Below, in pieces: positions 19,243 to 23,542 of a stretch of 35,164 bases of DNA. Made by a program: the position numbers and the translations under genes. The stretch's first letter is position 1; each line of letters opens with the position of its first letter. This DNA comes from Thermomicrobiales bacterium (GTDB taxonomy: Bacteria; Chloroflexota; Chloroflexia; Thermomicrobiales; UBA6265), in NCBI GenBank assembly GCA_020853615.1, contig JADYYO010000400.1, positions 1 to 35,164 on the forward strand, written 5' to 3'. Under the pieces are notes generated by a model. It worked only from the letters and a program-made list of their open reading frames with translations. It searched no databases and had not been told where the DNA came from.

Positions 19243-19599
19243 CTATGCCTCGAGAAACTCGATCAACGCCAGCGGCGCCGCATCGCCATGCCGCACGCCC
19301 AGCTTCGAAATCCGGGTGTAGCCGCCCGGCGCCTCCTCGAAGCGGGGCGCGATCACCTCGAACAGCCGGGCGGTTGCCGCCGGATGATCGAGCCGCGACA
19401 TCACCAGGTTCCGGGTGTGCGAGCTGTCCTCGCGCGCGATCGTGACGAGCTTCTCGACGATTGGCCGCAGCGTCTTCGCCTTCGCCTCGGTCGTCGTCAA
19501 TCGCTCGTGCAGGATCATCGAAACGGCGAGCTGCCGCAGCATCGCCTGCCGCTGGGCAGGGTTGCGGCCGAACTTCCGCCCCGCCTTTCGGTGCCTCAC
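19243..19599 (-). CDS. rplQ: 50S ribosomal protein L17
   Basis: A 118-residue large-subunit protein near the exit tunnel. It starts RHRKAGRKFGRNPAQRQAMLRQL and ends with GGYTRISKLGVRHGDAAPLALIEF, both characteristic. The start is GTG 19599, with AAGGAGGAG located inside the end of rpoA. The same frame is open further upstream, but that part reads across rpoA and is not L17. Confidence 0.97.
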   Translation of the reverse strand: MRHRKAGRKFGRNPAQRQAMLRQLAVSMILHERLTTTEAKAKTLRPIVEKLVTIAREDSSHTRNLVMSRLDHPAATARLFEVIAPRFEEAPGGYTRISKLGVRHGDAAPLALIEFLEA

Positions 19600-19603
19600 G
19601 GTT

Positions 19604-20713
19604 CTACTCCTCCTTGCCGGCGGGGCTTGCCGCCCCTGCCCCGTCCCCCCGCAGGGAGGCGACGGCTTCAGCCATCTCTTCGTCACCCGCGGCGAGCTCG
19701 CCGTCGAGGTCATCGAGTGCGTCGTCTTCCAGATCGAGGCCTTCGAGCAGCCCGGCGCTCGCGATGCCCACATCGCCTTCCGGCAGGTAGCCAGATTCGG
19801 CCAGCTTCTCACGCAACTCCGTCAGCGATCTCGGGCCGAAATTGCGAATCGAGAGGAGCTGATCGGGATCGATCGTGAGCACCTGGCCTACGCGCTCGAT
19901 CTGCCGGCTGCGCAGCGCGTTCAGCACGCGCGGCGAGAGCCCGAGATCGGCGAGAGGCTTGTTGAGCACCTCGTCCGGGATGACCAGGCCACCAGAGGCG
20001 GCCTCCTCCGACTCACCCTGGTTGAACGAGGCGAAGACCTGCGCCTGATCGACGAGGATCTTCGCAGCCTCGGCCAGCGCCTCGTCCGGCTCGATCGTCC
20101 CGTCGGTCAGCACCTCGATGATGAGCCGGTCGTAGTCGGTCATCGGCCCGACCCGGGTGTGCTCGACGACGAAGTTGACCCGCTCGATCGGCGTGTAGAT
20201 CGCATCGATCGGGATCTCGCCGATCGAGTACGACTCCTGCATCTCGGCCGGCTTGTAGCCGCGATCCCGGGTGATCCAGAGATCCATGTCGATCACGCCG
20301 TCAGGGCCGTCGATCGTGGCGATCACCTGCTCGGGGTTGATGACTTCGACCTCAGGCGGCCACACGACATCGCCGGCGGTGACCGTTCGCTCGCCCGATC
20401 CGTCACCCTGCGCGTAGAGATGCGCCCGAATCTCGTCGGAAATCTCCATCACACGCTTCAGGCGGACGCGCTTCAGATTGAGCACGATCTCCGTCACGTC
20501 CTCCCGGACGTTCGGGATCGTGGAAAACTCGTGCCAGACGTTGTCGAGGCGAATGCGCGAAACCGCCGCCCCCTCCAACGAGCGCAGCAGCATCCGCCGC
20601 AGGGCGTTGCCGAGCGTGGTGCCGTAGCCCGGCTCCATCGGCTCCGCCTTGTAGCGGCCGTAATTCAATCCAGTCTCGATCGTTTCAATGTGGAATTCAG
20701 GTCGTTCCAACAA
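19604..20713 (-). CDS. rpoA: RNA polymerase alpha subunit, with long acidic C-terminal tail
   Basis: Scaffold for RNA polymerase assembly and contact point for activators. Residues 1-230 are the dimerising N-terminal domain (GYGTTLGNALRRMLL near 29-43). Residues about 245-310 are the C-terminal domain with its helix-hairpin-helix (LLSIRNFGPRSLTELREKL region). Residues 311-369 form an extra acidic tail rich in Asp, Glu, Ala and Gly; most alpha subunits end near 315-330. The start appears to be TTG 20713: GGAGG lies nine bases upstream and the protein then begins with LERPEFHIET, as in homologues, while no ATG or GTG fits. The gene follows a 239-base gap where rpsD is normally found. Confidence 0.95.
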   Translation of the reverse strand: MLERPEFHIETIETGLNYGRYKAEPMEPGYGTTLGNALRRMLLRSLEGAAVSRIRLDNVWHEFSTIPNVREDVTEIVLNLKRVRLKRVMEISDEIRAHLYAQGDGSGERTVTAGDVVWPPEVEVINPEQVIATIDGPDGVIDMDLWITRDRGYKPAEMQESYSIGEIPIDAIYTPIERVNFVVEHTRVGPMTDYDRLIIEVLTDGTIEPDEALAEAAKILVDQAQVFASFNQGESEEAASGGLVIPDEVLNKPLADLGLSPRVLNALRSRQIERVGQVLTIDPDQLLSIRNFGPRSLTELREKLAESGYLPEGDVGIASAGLLEGLDLEDDALDDLDGELAAGDEEMAEAVASLRGDGAGAASPAGKEE

Positions 20714-20952
20714 AACGCGCTGCCTCCATGTCTCCTTCAGTCCGCTGGTTCGCACGGGGGACGCGTTCGCCCTCGCGCAAACACCCGCGGCGCCGCGGTC
20801 GCATCGCAAACGCTCCGCGCGGCCGGCACGTCATGACCACCGGCCGCGGGTCACCCATGGAGCACAACGCCTCGCGCGGCCCGGCGGCCCTGTCAATGCA
20901 CCCAATAACGTGGCGTTCAGGCTCCTCGCGGGCGCGATTATCGTCTCGCCTC
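20714..20952 (-). other. Structured gap between rpsK and rpoA, where rpsD is usually encoded
   Basis: No credible gene is seen on either strand in this 239-base gap. Its main feature is a perfect nine-base inverted repeat, CGCGGCCGG (20818-20826) with CCGGCCGCG (20840-20848), around a 13-base loop. No T-run follows it on the transcribed strand. An isolated TTGACA-like box (20896-20891) lacks a -10 partner. The gap could be a leader for rpoA, an attenuation site, or the scar of a lost rpsD. Confidence 0.6.
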
Positions 20953-21360
20953 TTAGACGCGGCGGCGCTTCGGCGGCCGGCAACCATTGAACGGAATCGG
21001 CGTGGTGTCAGTGATCGAGATCACCTGGACCCCGCTCGACTGCAACGAGCGGATGGCCATCTCGCGCCCGGAGCCCGGCCCCTTGACGAAGACGTCGACC
21101 TGCCGCAGGCCGTGCTCCATCGCCTTCCGCGCCGCGGCCTCGGCCGTCACCTGGGCCGCATACGGGGTGCTCTTCCGGCTCCCCTTGAATCCGTTCGACC
21201 CGGCGCTCGACCAGGAGATCACGTTTCCGCCCGGATCGGTCATCGTCACGATCGTGTTGTTGAATGTCGCCTGCACGTACGCCTTGCCGCGAGGGATGTT
21301 CTTCCGATCGCGCCGCCGAACGCGAGTCTTGCCCTTACCGCCTCGTCGCCTCTCTGCCAT
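20953..21360 (-). CDS. rpsK: 30S ribosomal protein S11
   Basis: A platform protein near the mRNA exit and E site, 135 residues. It has the diagnostic [45 protein letters not shown] and the C-terminal [16 protein letters not shown] basic N-terminal tail precedes the fold. It lies 68 bases after rpsM in the alpha-operon order. Confidence 0.97.
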
Positions 21361-21428
21361 TCCGGTGCATGTCCTCCATGATCGAGCGAACGCCCACGAT
21401 CAACGGGTGAGCGCTCGCATTGCGCTGA

Positions 21429-21800
21429 TTACTTCTTCTTGCGGCCGCCGACAGCGCGCCGAGGTCCACGGCGAGTGCGCGCATTGGTGCGCGTGCGCTG
21501 CCCGCGAGTCGGCAGACCGCGCCGATGACGCAGCCCACGATAGCAGCCGATGTCCATCAATCGCTTGATGTTCATCGCCACTTCCCGGCGCAGGTCGCCC
21601 TCGACCCGCATCTCCTTGTCGACGATCTCACGCAGGCGGTTGACCTCGTCGTCGGTCAGATCCCGCACCCGCGTATCCGGATTGATGTTGGTCCGCTCGA
21701 GCAGTTGCTGGCTCGTGTACGGCCCGATTCCGTAGATGTAGGGCAGCGCTGCCTCGACCCGCTTGTCGCGCGGCAGATCGACCCCCGCAATTCTTGCCAC
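21429..21800 (-). CDS. rpsM: 30S ribosomal protein S13
   Basis: A head protein contacting L5 and the P-site tRNA, 123 residues. It opens [18 protein letters not shown], has the helix-hairpin-helix-like [12 protein letters not shown], and ends with the basic [16 protein letters not shown] tail. It follows rpmJ by 36 bases. Confidence 0.97.
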
Positions 21801-21836
21801 GTCGTATCCCCTTTGTGCCCACTCGCGTGGGTGCGA

Positions 21837-21950
21837 TTAGCCCTGCCGCTGCTTGTGCCGGGGGTTGACGCAAATCACCCGGATCACGCCATGGCGACGA
21901 ATGATCTTGCACTTCTCGCAGCGGCGAGTGACCGAAGCTGCTACTTTCAT
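21837..21950 (-). CDS. rpmJ: 50S ribosomal protein L36, zinc-binding form
   Basis: A 37-residue protein, [33 protein letters not shown]. The C-x2-C ... C ... H set (C11, C14, C27, H32) marks the zinc-binding form. The start is ATG 21950; longer open frames upstream are not homologous. infA normally precedes it but is absent. Confidence 0.95.
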
Positions 21951-22036
21951 GTCCCAATCCTGTCGTGTCACCGGACAGAGACGTCCAGCGCCTCCAGGTA
22001 TCCGGCTCGTCTTCCTTCTGCGCGAACACACCGATA

Positions 22037-22056
22037 GCGCACGCCGTGGCGTGCGC
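22037..22056 (-). other. Strong hairpin between map and rpmJ
   Basis: GCGCACGCC (22037-22045) pairs perfectly with GGCGTGCGC (22048-22056), giving eight pairs with a four-base loop. It starts nine bases after the map stop codon and has no T-run behind it. It occupies the 114-base gap that usually contains infA. It could be a partial terminator, a processing site or a stability element. Confidence 0.55.
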
Positions 22057-22064
22057 CGAACACG

Positions 22065-22832
22065 CTATTCTAACACGGAACTCAATCGACGCGTCAACAC
22101 GCGCCCGCCCTCCGGGCTCACGGCGACCGTGTGCTCGAAGTGCGCCGCCAGCGAGCCGTCCGCGGTGACGACGGTCCAGTTGTCGCCCAGCGTCCGCGTC
22201 TCCTCTGTCCCGGTCGTCAGCATCGGCTCGATCGCCAGCGTCAGCCCCGTGCGCATCAACACGCCCCGGTCGGGCCGACCGATGTTGGGGACGTGCGGGT
22301 CCTCGTGCATCTGCCGGCCGATGCCGTGACCCCCGTAGTCCTTGACGACGCCGCGCTGTCGCGAGCGCGCGAAGGCCTCCACCGCGTGCCCGATCGCACC
22401 GAGCCGGTGATTCGAGACGGCCGCCGCCACCGCCCGATTGAGCGCCTCCTCGGTGTCGCGCAGCAGCGCCGCCGCCTCGTCAGAGATGGCGCCGACACCA
22501 TACGTCCACGCCGAGTCGCCGTGGAACCCCTCGAGGATGGCGCCCACATCGACCGAGACAATGTCCCCTTCACAAAGCCGGCGTCGGCCGGGAATGCCGT
22601 GCACGATCTCATCATTGACCGAGGTGCAGATGTGCGCCGGGTATCCGTGGTAGCCAAGGAACGAGGAGACGGCTCCCTGCTCCGCGAGCACGTTGCGCGC
22701 GATCTCATCGAGATCGGCGGTCGTCAGACCGGGAGTGAGCTCGCGCTCGATCGCGGCGTGAACGAGCGCCACGACATGACCCGCCGCCTCCATGCGCTGG
22801 ATCTCGCGCTCATTCTTGATGGTCATCGCCAT
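22065..22832 (-). CDS. map: Methionine aminopeptidase, type I
   Basis: Removes the initiator Met from nascent proteins. The 255-residue protein has all five metal ligands in context: D in SVDVGA, D in GFHGDSAWTY, H in YGGHGIGRQMHE, E in AIEPM and E in HFEHTVAV. The HICTSVNDEIVHGIP stretch is the usual substrate loop. ATG 22832 has GGGAG eight bases upstream. It follows adk closely, as in many bacteria. Confidence 0.97.
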   Translation of the reverse strand: MAMTIKNEREIQRMEAAGHVVALVHAAIERELTPGLTTADLDEIARNVLAEQGAVSSFLGYHGYPAHICTSVNDEIVHGIPGRRRLCEGDIVSVDVGAILEGFHGDSAWTYGVGAISDEAAALLRDTEEALNRAVAAAVSNHRLGAIGHAVEAFARSRQRGVVKDYGGHGIGRQMHEDPHVPNIGRPDRGVLMRTGLTLAIEPMLTTGTEETRTLGDNWTVVTADGSLAAHFEHTVAVSPEGGRVLTRRLSSVLE

Positions 22833-22843
22833 GGCGCCGCTCC

Positions 22844-23542
22844 CTATCGCCGGGGGGCCGAGTCGGCCATGACCCGCTCGCGGATCGCGGCGACGATCGC
22901 GTCAGTCACCTCGGCGATCGGCCGGTCGCCGTTGACATGGACGAGGACGCCGCGCTCGGCGTAGCGGCCGACCAGAGGCGCGGTCTCGCGCTCGTACAGG
23001 TCGAGCCGCTTCGAGACCGCCTCGGGCGTGTCATCCGCCCGCTGGATGAGTGTCCCGCCGCAGGCGTCGCACTCATTCAGCCGGGCGGGCGGATCGGAGA
23101 CGACGTTGTAGACCTTGCCACAGACAGAGCAGAGCCGGCGGCCCGACAGTCGCTGAATCAACTCCTCGCGGGGCACGTCGATGGCCACGACCGCGTCGAT
23201 CTTCTCCCCGCGCCGCGCCAGCAGGTCATCGAGCGCCGCCGCTTGCGCTGCGGTCCGCGGAAAGCCGTCGTAGAGCGCGCCGACGACCTGGCCACCCTCG
23301 CGGCCCTCGCGCGCAATCTCATCGAGGCGATCCGCGACGAGGGCGATGGTCAGATCATCCGGCACCAGCTCGCCCCGGTCGTAGATCGCCTTGATCTCCT
23401 GCCCGAGTGCGGTGCCGCTCTTGATCGCCGAGCGGAAGAGCTCTCCCGTGGCGACCGGGGCGAGATACAACTGCTCGCGGACCCGCTCGCTCTGCGTCCC
23501 CTTTCCCGATCCCTGGGGACCCATCAGGATCACGTGAATCAT
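22844..23542 (-). CDS. adk: Adenylate kinase with zinc-type LID
   Basis: Interconverts AMP plus ATP and two ADP. The 232-residue enzyme has the P-loop GPQGSGKGTQ, the AMP-binding TGELFR, DGFPRT, and a LID domain with CSVC and CDAC, so the long, four-cysteine zinc LID is present. The start is ATG 23542, in front of IHVILMGPQG; a GTG at 23569 would add nine unneeded residues. Its place after secY follows the usual spc-operon order. Confidence 0.97.
   Translation of the reverse strand: MIHVILMGPQGSGKGTQSERVREQLYLAPVATGELFRSAIKSGTALGQEIKAIYDRGELVPDDLTIALVADRLDEIAREGREGGQVVGALYDGFPRTAAQAAALDDLLARRGEKIDAVVAIDVPREELIQRLSGRRLCSVCGKVYNVVSDPPARLNECDACGGTLIQRADDTPEAVSKRLDLYERETAPLVGRYAERGVLVHVNGDRPIAEVTDAIVAAIRERVMADSAPRR

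Follow-up and report, generated by a model that had tools for sequence, protein, structure and literature searches.

Background

Ribosomal protein S4, the product of rpsD, starts the assembly of the small ribosomal subunit, serves as a marker in species trees and, in the textbook account, represses the alpha operon of Escherichia coli. Chen, Roberts and Luthey-Schulten (2009, PMC3087516) sorted S4 proteins into C+ and C- forms, and proposed a route, path B, in which an S4 of the C-(IV) type is transferred into a genome that carries a C+ rpsD in its alpha operon and the C+ gene is then lost. They describe two instances, F. magna and M. flagellatus, in which the C+ gene was lost once a transfer had taken place, judge group-wide losses ancient, and include no Chloroflexi among their tabulated genomes with multiple S4 genes. 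A 2024 review (PMC10931766) notes that rpsD stands apart from the operon in many lineages and regards the reason for its scattered positions as open.

The locus described here, from a member of the Thermomicrobiales, can be compared with each of these systems. As in path B, there is a single zinc-free S4 outside an otherwise intact alpha operon, and the surroundings of the unlinked gene are variable; unlike in the published cases, species within a single genus differ by the loss, it has occurred repeatedly in one order, and some relatives retain remnants. The order rpsM-rpsK-rpoA-rplQ is kept with rpsD elsewhere, as in the Bacilli and Alphaproteobacteria, but there (PMC10931766) a separate rpsD is a trait of whole classes, whereas only some genomes of the present order show it. 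The zinc-switched paralogs L31A and L31B, treated in the same review, likewise comprise one form of a ribosomal protein that binds zinc and one that does not; in our genome the zinc form is gone rather than switched, and no palindromic operator was seen. With respect to regulation, the S4 of B. subtilis represses its own leader, whereas no leader family was found in the Thermomicrobiales loci examined. The alpha operon of E. coli is the same gene cluster, but our genome gave no match to the alpha-operon or S4-leader RNA families; according to the title of a paper cited in PMC7247131, most ribosomal protein leaders of E. coli are confined to Gammaproteobacteria. We found no report of genus-level, repeated S4 displacement with remnants in Thermomicrobiales in the open-licence literature that we searched, and the part of PMC3353972 available to us does not describe S4 displacement in Thermomicrobi.

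Organization of the alpha operon

The window, that is, the whole stretch of 35,164 nucleotides that was analysed, is contig C400 of genome G000, a draft metagenome bin of 4.23 Mb in 413 contigs that is 85.9% complete with 4.77% contamination. An earlier sequence-only reading of the window proposed that rpsD is missing from the alpha operon and that a gap of 239 bases stands in its place. Both points were borne out: the genes on the minus strand run rpmJ, rpsM, rpsK, rpoA, rplQ, with rpsM, rpsK and rpoA consecutive and no rpsD, and the interval between rpsK and rpoA is exactly 239 bases. The features are as follows.

21837..21950, minus strand: probable rpmJ (L36), from its translation
21429..21800, minus strand: rpsM (S13), from the ORF and relatives
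20953..21360, minus strand: rpsK (S11), 135 aa, from the ORF and its match to relatives
20714..20952, minus strand: rpsK-rpoA interval, the place of rpsD in relatives; no S4 remnant, no RNA family, fold at chance level
20818..20848, minus strand: nine-base inverted repeat with a 13-base loop, within the rpsK-rpoA interval; not significant
19604..20713, minus strand: rpoA, with a TTG start at 20713-20711 after GGAGG, from the ORF and relatives
19243..19599, minus strand: probable rplQ (L17), with a probable start inside the longer ORF 19243-19812

The start of rpoA at TTG, also proposed from the sequence, is correct, as it is preceded by GGAGG and its position is held in the genus. The next codon in G003 is TTA, and therefore only the first TTG can be the start. 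By a simple Shine-Dalgarno rule rpoA starts with TTG in 40 of 57 genomes of the order, so the TTG is a habit of the lineage that is unrelated to the loss of rpsD.

A second gene, infA, is also absent from its usual place before rpmJ, in the map-rpmJ interval at 21951-22064. A single infA was found in each of G000, G002, G003 and G012, on a contig other than the alpha-operon contig (G000:C364:2049-2249 in our genome), and in G045 there are two copies, of which one lies directly upstream of the alpha-operon genes. This looks like the same pattern of two copies followed by loss as in rpsD.

Content of the rpsK-rpoA interval

The gap had been described as structured, on the strength of a perfect nine-base palindrome. 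The arms exist, at 20818-20826 and 20840-20848, and the stretch contains a further perfect nine-base pair, but the palindrome is not beyond chance: a perfect stem of at least nine bases with a loop of 3-30 is present in 36 of 500 dinucleotide shuffles, and in 78 of 500 if loops of up to 60 are allowed. Such a palindrome is in line with chance in a stretch of 70% G+C. The fold of the whole interval gave a z score of -1.07, its stability being equalled or exceeded by 30 of 200 shuffles, and does not support the description. Alignment of the interval to the spacers of relatives yielded nothing beyond the Shine-Dalgarno sequence and the TTG; because the gap aligns with no relative's spacer, the stem is not conserved and covariation is not possible.

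These results bear on the idea that the gap is a functional RNA element (a leader, a terminator or a processing site) that came to control rpoA after rpsD left. Such an element could draw on the perfect nine-base stem and on the fact that the G+C-rich gap folds stably in absolute terms, yet stem and fold are at the chance level and no spacer of a relative aligns. Furthermore, there was no terminator-like or promoter-like site in the interval, no Rfam match at the gathering score in the window and none at E values up to 5 in 20600-22900. We regard a functional RNA here as highly improbable. A hidden small gene was considered as well and rejected, as the 96-aa ORF that crosses the interval (20697-20987) has no Pfam match. 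Most likely, 20714-20952 is a neutral remnant spacer left by a deletion.

The S4 gene on contig C181

A search for rpsD elsewhere in the genome, which the sequence-only reading had suggested, did find an S4 gene, on contig C181, but it belongs to a different S4 lineage and is not the operon gene moved to a new place. This is the sole full-length S4 in the G000 assembly (G000:C181:1367-1960, 198 aa). It scores 216 bits with TIGR01017, against a cut-off of 177, and has the Pfam Ribosomal_S4 and S4 domains. The genomes of the same genus G001, G002 and G003 carry, directly before rpoA, an S4 of 214 aa with cysteines 9, 12, 26 and 31; the C181 protein has no cysteine anywhere and hence none at these zinc positions. 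Comparison by eye with the operon S4 of G001 shows a shorter N-terminal part, and RRFG and IDIYG in place of RREG and LYL. The signatures that Chen et al. give for the C-(IV) type are the absence of the C+ N-terminal insertion, Leu or Phe instead of Glu in RRxG, and Gly or Pro instead of Leu at residue 21. The C181 protein fits them, as it is without the insertion, has Phe in RRxG and has Gly at residue 21. No C+ S4 was found in G000, neither in the operon nor elsewhere in the 86% complete assembly; given this completeness and 4.8% contamination, a second S4 could be missing from the assembly.

The presence of an S4 gene elsewhere is what would be expected if the operon rpsD had been relocated and had lost its cysteines at the new locus. 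The identities and the S4 tree led us to reject this, and we give it next to no probability: the C181 S4 is 45.5% identical to the operon S4 of G001 and 70.2% identical to the second S4 of G133, a genome of another family of the Chloroflexota, and it falls in a separate clade with support of 100/98. For reference, rpoA of G000 and G133 are 49% identical and the operon S4 proteins of G001 and G133 63.5% identical.

The C181 S4 gene is convergent with argG (G000:C181:199-1254), which shares 82-83% identity with its counterparts in G003 and G001. Another gene of the contig was detected in 4 of 12 genomes searched, and all four belong to the genus. Contig C181 therefore belongs to the genus. There is no S4 beside argG in G003 or G001, and no second full-length S4 was found in either. 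The argG is of an uncommon type, 78% identical to G125:C45:8857-9870 from another family of the phylum, and other searched genomes outside the genus match it at only 27-34%; it is possibly another transferred gene. G125 is also among the genomes with a close relative of the C181 S4.

Distribution of rpsD across the order

We searched 61 genomes of the order, in 57 of which rpsK and rpoA could be read on one contig; G006, G018 and G058 were left out for want of an rpoA match and G055 for a partial one. Between rpsK and rpoA, rpsD is kept in 40 of the 57 and absent in 17 (G000; G004, G009, G023, G024, G028, G030; G005, G008; G022; G007; G035; G039; G046, G048, G051, G060). On a quick tree of rpsM, rpsK and rpoA, with 20 of its 53 inner branches open, presence and absence require at least eight changes, a count that is blind to loss versus gain. 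Of the 17 genomes without the operon gene, 11 have a full-length S4 at another locus, and none was found in the other six (G007, G009, G023, G030, G039 and G051). Zinc cysteines were seen in none of the 18 unlinked S4 genes of the order, of which the G018 copy is uninformative because its N-terminus is missing. Among the 40 operon copies, all four cysteines are present in 37. In the remaining three (L061, L019 and L097, in G013, G036 and G034) a zinc-free S4 gene sits in the operon itself, a state reached by a route other than displacement.

Intermediate stages are also preserved. The C+ and C- forms occur together in G010, G045, G050 and G053 of the order and, outside it, in G133, G089 and G141. 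For decayed copies, a profile of the whole S4 was too insensitive, as it ranked even the tail in G005 among shuffles, and we therefore built a scan for the 16-residue tail with shuffles; the scan was devised after the tails in G005 and G008 had been noticed by eye. It covered 20 gaps without rpsD, namely the 17 of the order and those of G217, G125 and G076, and found decayed rpsD tails in four, each above 500 of 500 shuffles. The remnants read FTEALIVEYSCR followed by a stop in G005, ALNVEYYSR followed by a stop in G008, MPPNNESPIIEFRVR with the stop lost in G039 and, outside the order, IYEQLVVDRYSR followed by a stop in G125. No tail scored above all shuffles in the other 16 gaps; for the G000 interval 394 of 500 shuffles score as high, so that no S4 remnant was detected there. 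At the DNA level, the gaps of G005 and G008 match operon rpsD at 1e-6 and 1e-5, respectively, and the G039 gap matches the end of a congener's rpsD and the spacer that follows at 3e-23. G039 is 96% complete, and with its decayed operon rpsD no full-length S4 was found in it.

Taken for the window by itself, the absence of rpsD might be an artefact of assembly or binning, with rpsD lost during assembly of the window or the C181 S4 gene contributed by another organism in the sample. The draft state of the metagenome bin, which was examined as assembled sequence, speaks for this reading. It nevertheless appears very unlikely to us. The interval is 239 bases unlike the spacers of relatives and not a bare junction, the C181 genes match the genus, and rpsD is likewise absent in 16 further genomes of the order; the remnants in four other operons show real loss there. 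G217, a genome of two contigs that is 99% complete, has its one full-length S4 on C2 and its alpha operon, with a 105-base interval and no rpsD, on C1; as this genome is near-finished, the arrangement is real there.

Trees of S4 and kinds of unlinked copy

Two S4 trees were made, a quick one of 73 rows and a careful one of 29 rows. The 73-row tree includes 30 of the 40 operon copies, and the rpoA loci of G125, G217, G076 and G086, which held no S4, have no row in it. The unlinked copies fall into at least two kinds, which we call 'b' and 'c'. Kind 'b', with an MNFTG start and nine rows of the family, is one group with support of 97 in the 73-row tree, and kind 'c' comprises the second S4 of Sphaerobacter-like genera and of other Chloroflexota. 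The S4 of G000 falls within 'c', grouped with G133, G217 and G125 (100/99) and apart from seven order-mates of the same kind. The Sphaerobacter-type unlinked S4 proteins (L089-L095) have no zinc cysteines, RREG as in C+ forms and Gly rather than Leu at residue 21, a combination that is mixed by the criteria of Chen et al.

Forcing the eight type-c S4 proteins of the order into one clade costs 25.5 log units (p-AU 0.015), and the simplest reading of the tree and this test is that the C- S4 was gained by transfer. Alternatively, the ancestor of the order may have carried several C- S4 genes in addition to the C+ operon gene, sorted afterwards by loss with no recent transfer; the S4 tree would also result if two old C- paralogs had been lost differentially. 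Second S4 genes are indeed widespread in the phylum, as the genomes with both forms named above illustrate, but the type-c proteins of the order do not form one clade, there is no type-c copy in any of G001-G003 and the S4 of G000 resembles that of G133 more closely than the rpoA identity would lead one to expect. Such old paralogy is in our judgement unlikely, and we infer transfer rather than sorting of old copies.

Regulation and zinc

It had been proposed that the relocation of S4 changes the control logic of the operon. This found no support, as neither the window nor 20 related loci contained an S4-leader or alpha-operon RNA. The 20 loci include three alpha operons of the same genus that bear rpsD, and only three tRNAs matched. 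Because no leader was found even in these operons, control of the E. coli type was not detected here to begin with, and because no S4 leader family was detected in any operon examined, nothing points to a lost S4 feedback loop.

Zinc economy may have been a driver of the exchange. A Zur-switched paralog would be expected to have an AT-rich palindromic operator before the C- gene. A generic screen for palindromes saw none with arms of at least nine bases in 16 regions upstream of unlinked rpsD genes, which, as far as such a screen goes, speaks against a simple zinc switch. Upstream of the unlinked rpsD in G046, G048 and G055 (L092-L094), by about 100-130 bases, there is a conserved stretch, GATCATGCGCGGCTGCATGCCCGCC ... 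GGCGGGG with a T run, which looks like a stem-loop and T run and is a possible attenuator.

Discussion

Our results suggest that a C- S4 was gained, that the C+ rpsD of the operon was then lost and that the S4 on C181 now stands in its place, and we consider this sequence of events likely. The genus ancestor would have had a zinc-binding (C+) rpsD in its alpha operon, and the lineage would have acquired an unlinked zinc-free (C-) S4, for which a different Chloroflexota lineage is the most likely donor. Once the ribosome accepted the C- S4, the C+ operon copy would have become redundant and could have been deleted, with the rest of the operon staying and a neutral spacer remaining between rpsK and rpoA; the 198-aa C- protein of C181 would now serve as S4. 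The absence of rpsD, the one full-length S4 elsewhere, its missing cysteines, its position in the tree apart from the operon S4 and from the second S4 of the order-mates, the remnants in other operons and the genomes with both forms are observed. We infer the deletion of rpsD in this species, whose own gap holds no remnant, and the use of the C181 protein in the ribosome.

The proposed process is ribosomal protein gene displacement of an already described type, path B in a recent, repeated form, and what is added to the known cases is a genus-level, repeated series with remnants in one order. For the lineage at large, we lean towards the view that C+ rpsD was lost repeatedly in Thermomicrobiales and the phylum (eight or more changes on the tree of the order's 57 genomes), that the replacements found represent several distinct zinc-free S4 lineages, and that all stages are preserved, from genomes with both copies through decayed tails to clean gaps.

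If this is true, membership of rpsD in the operon and any S4 feedback would be dispensable here, and shedding the zinc site would be the common outcome. The displacement of S4 warns against its use in concatenated trees of the Chloroflexota. The order is useful as a natural series of the stages of an S4 swap, and the states before, during and after it in one lineage would allow a direct test of zinc economy versus regulation as the driver of the swap.
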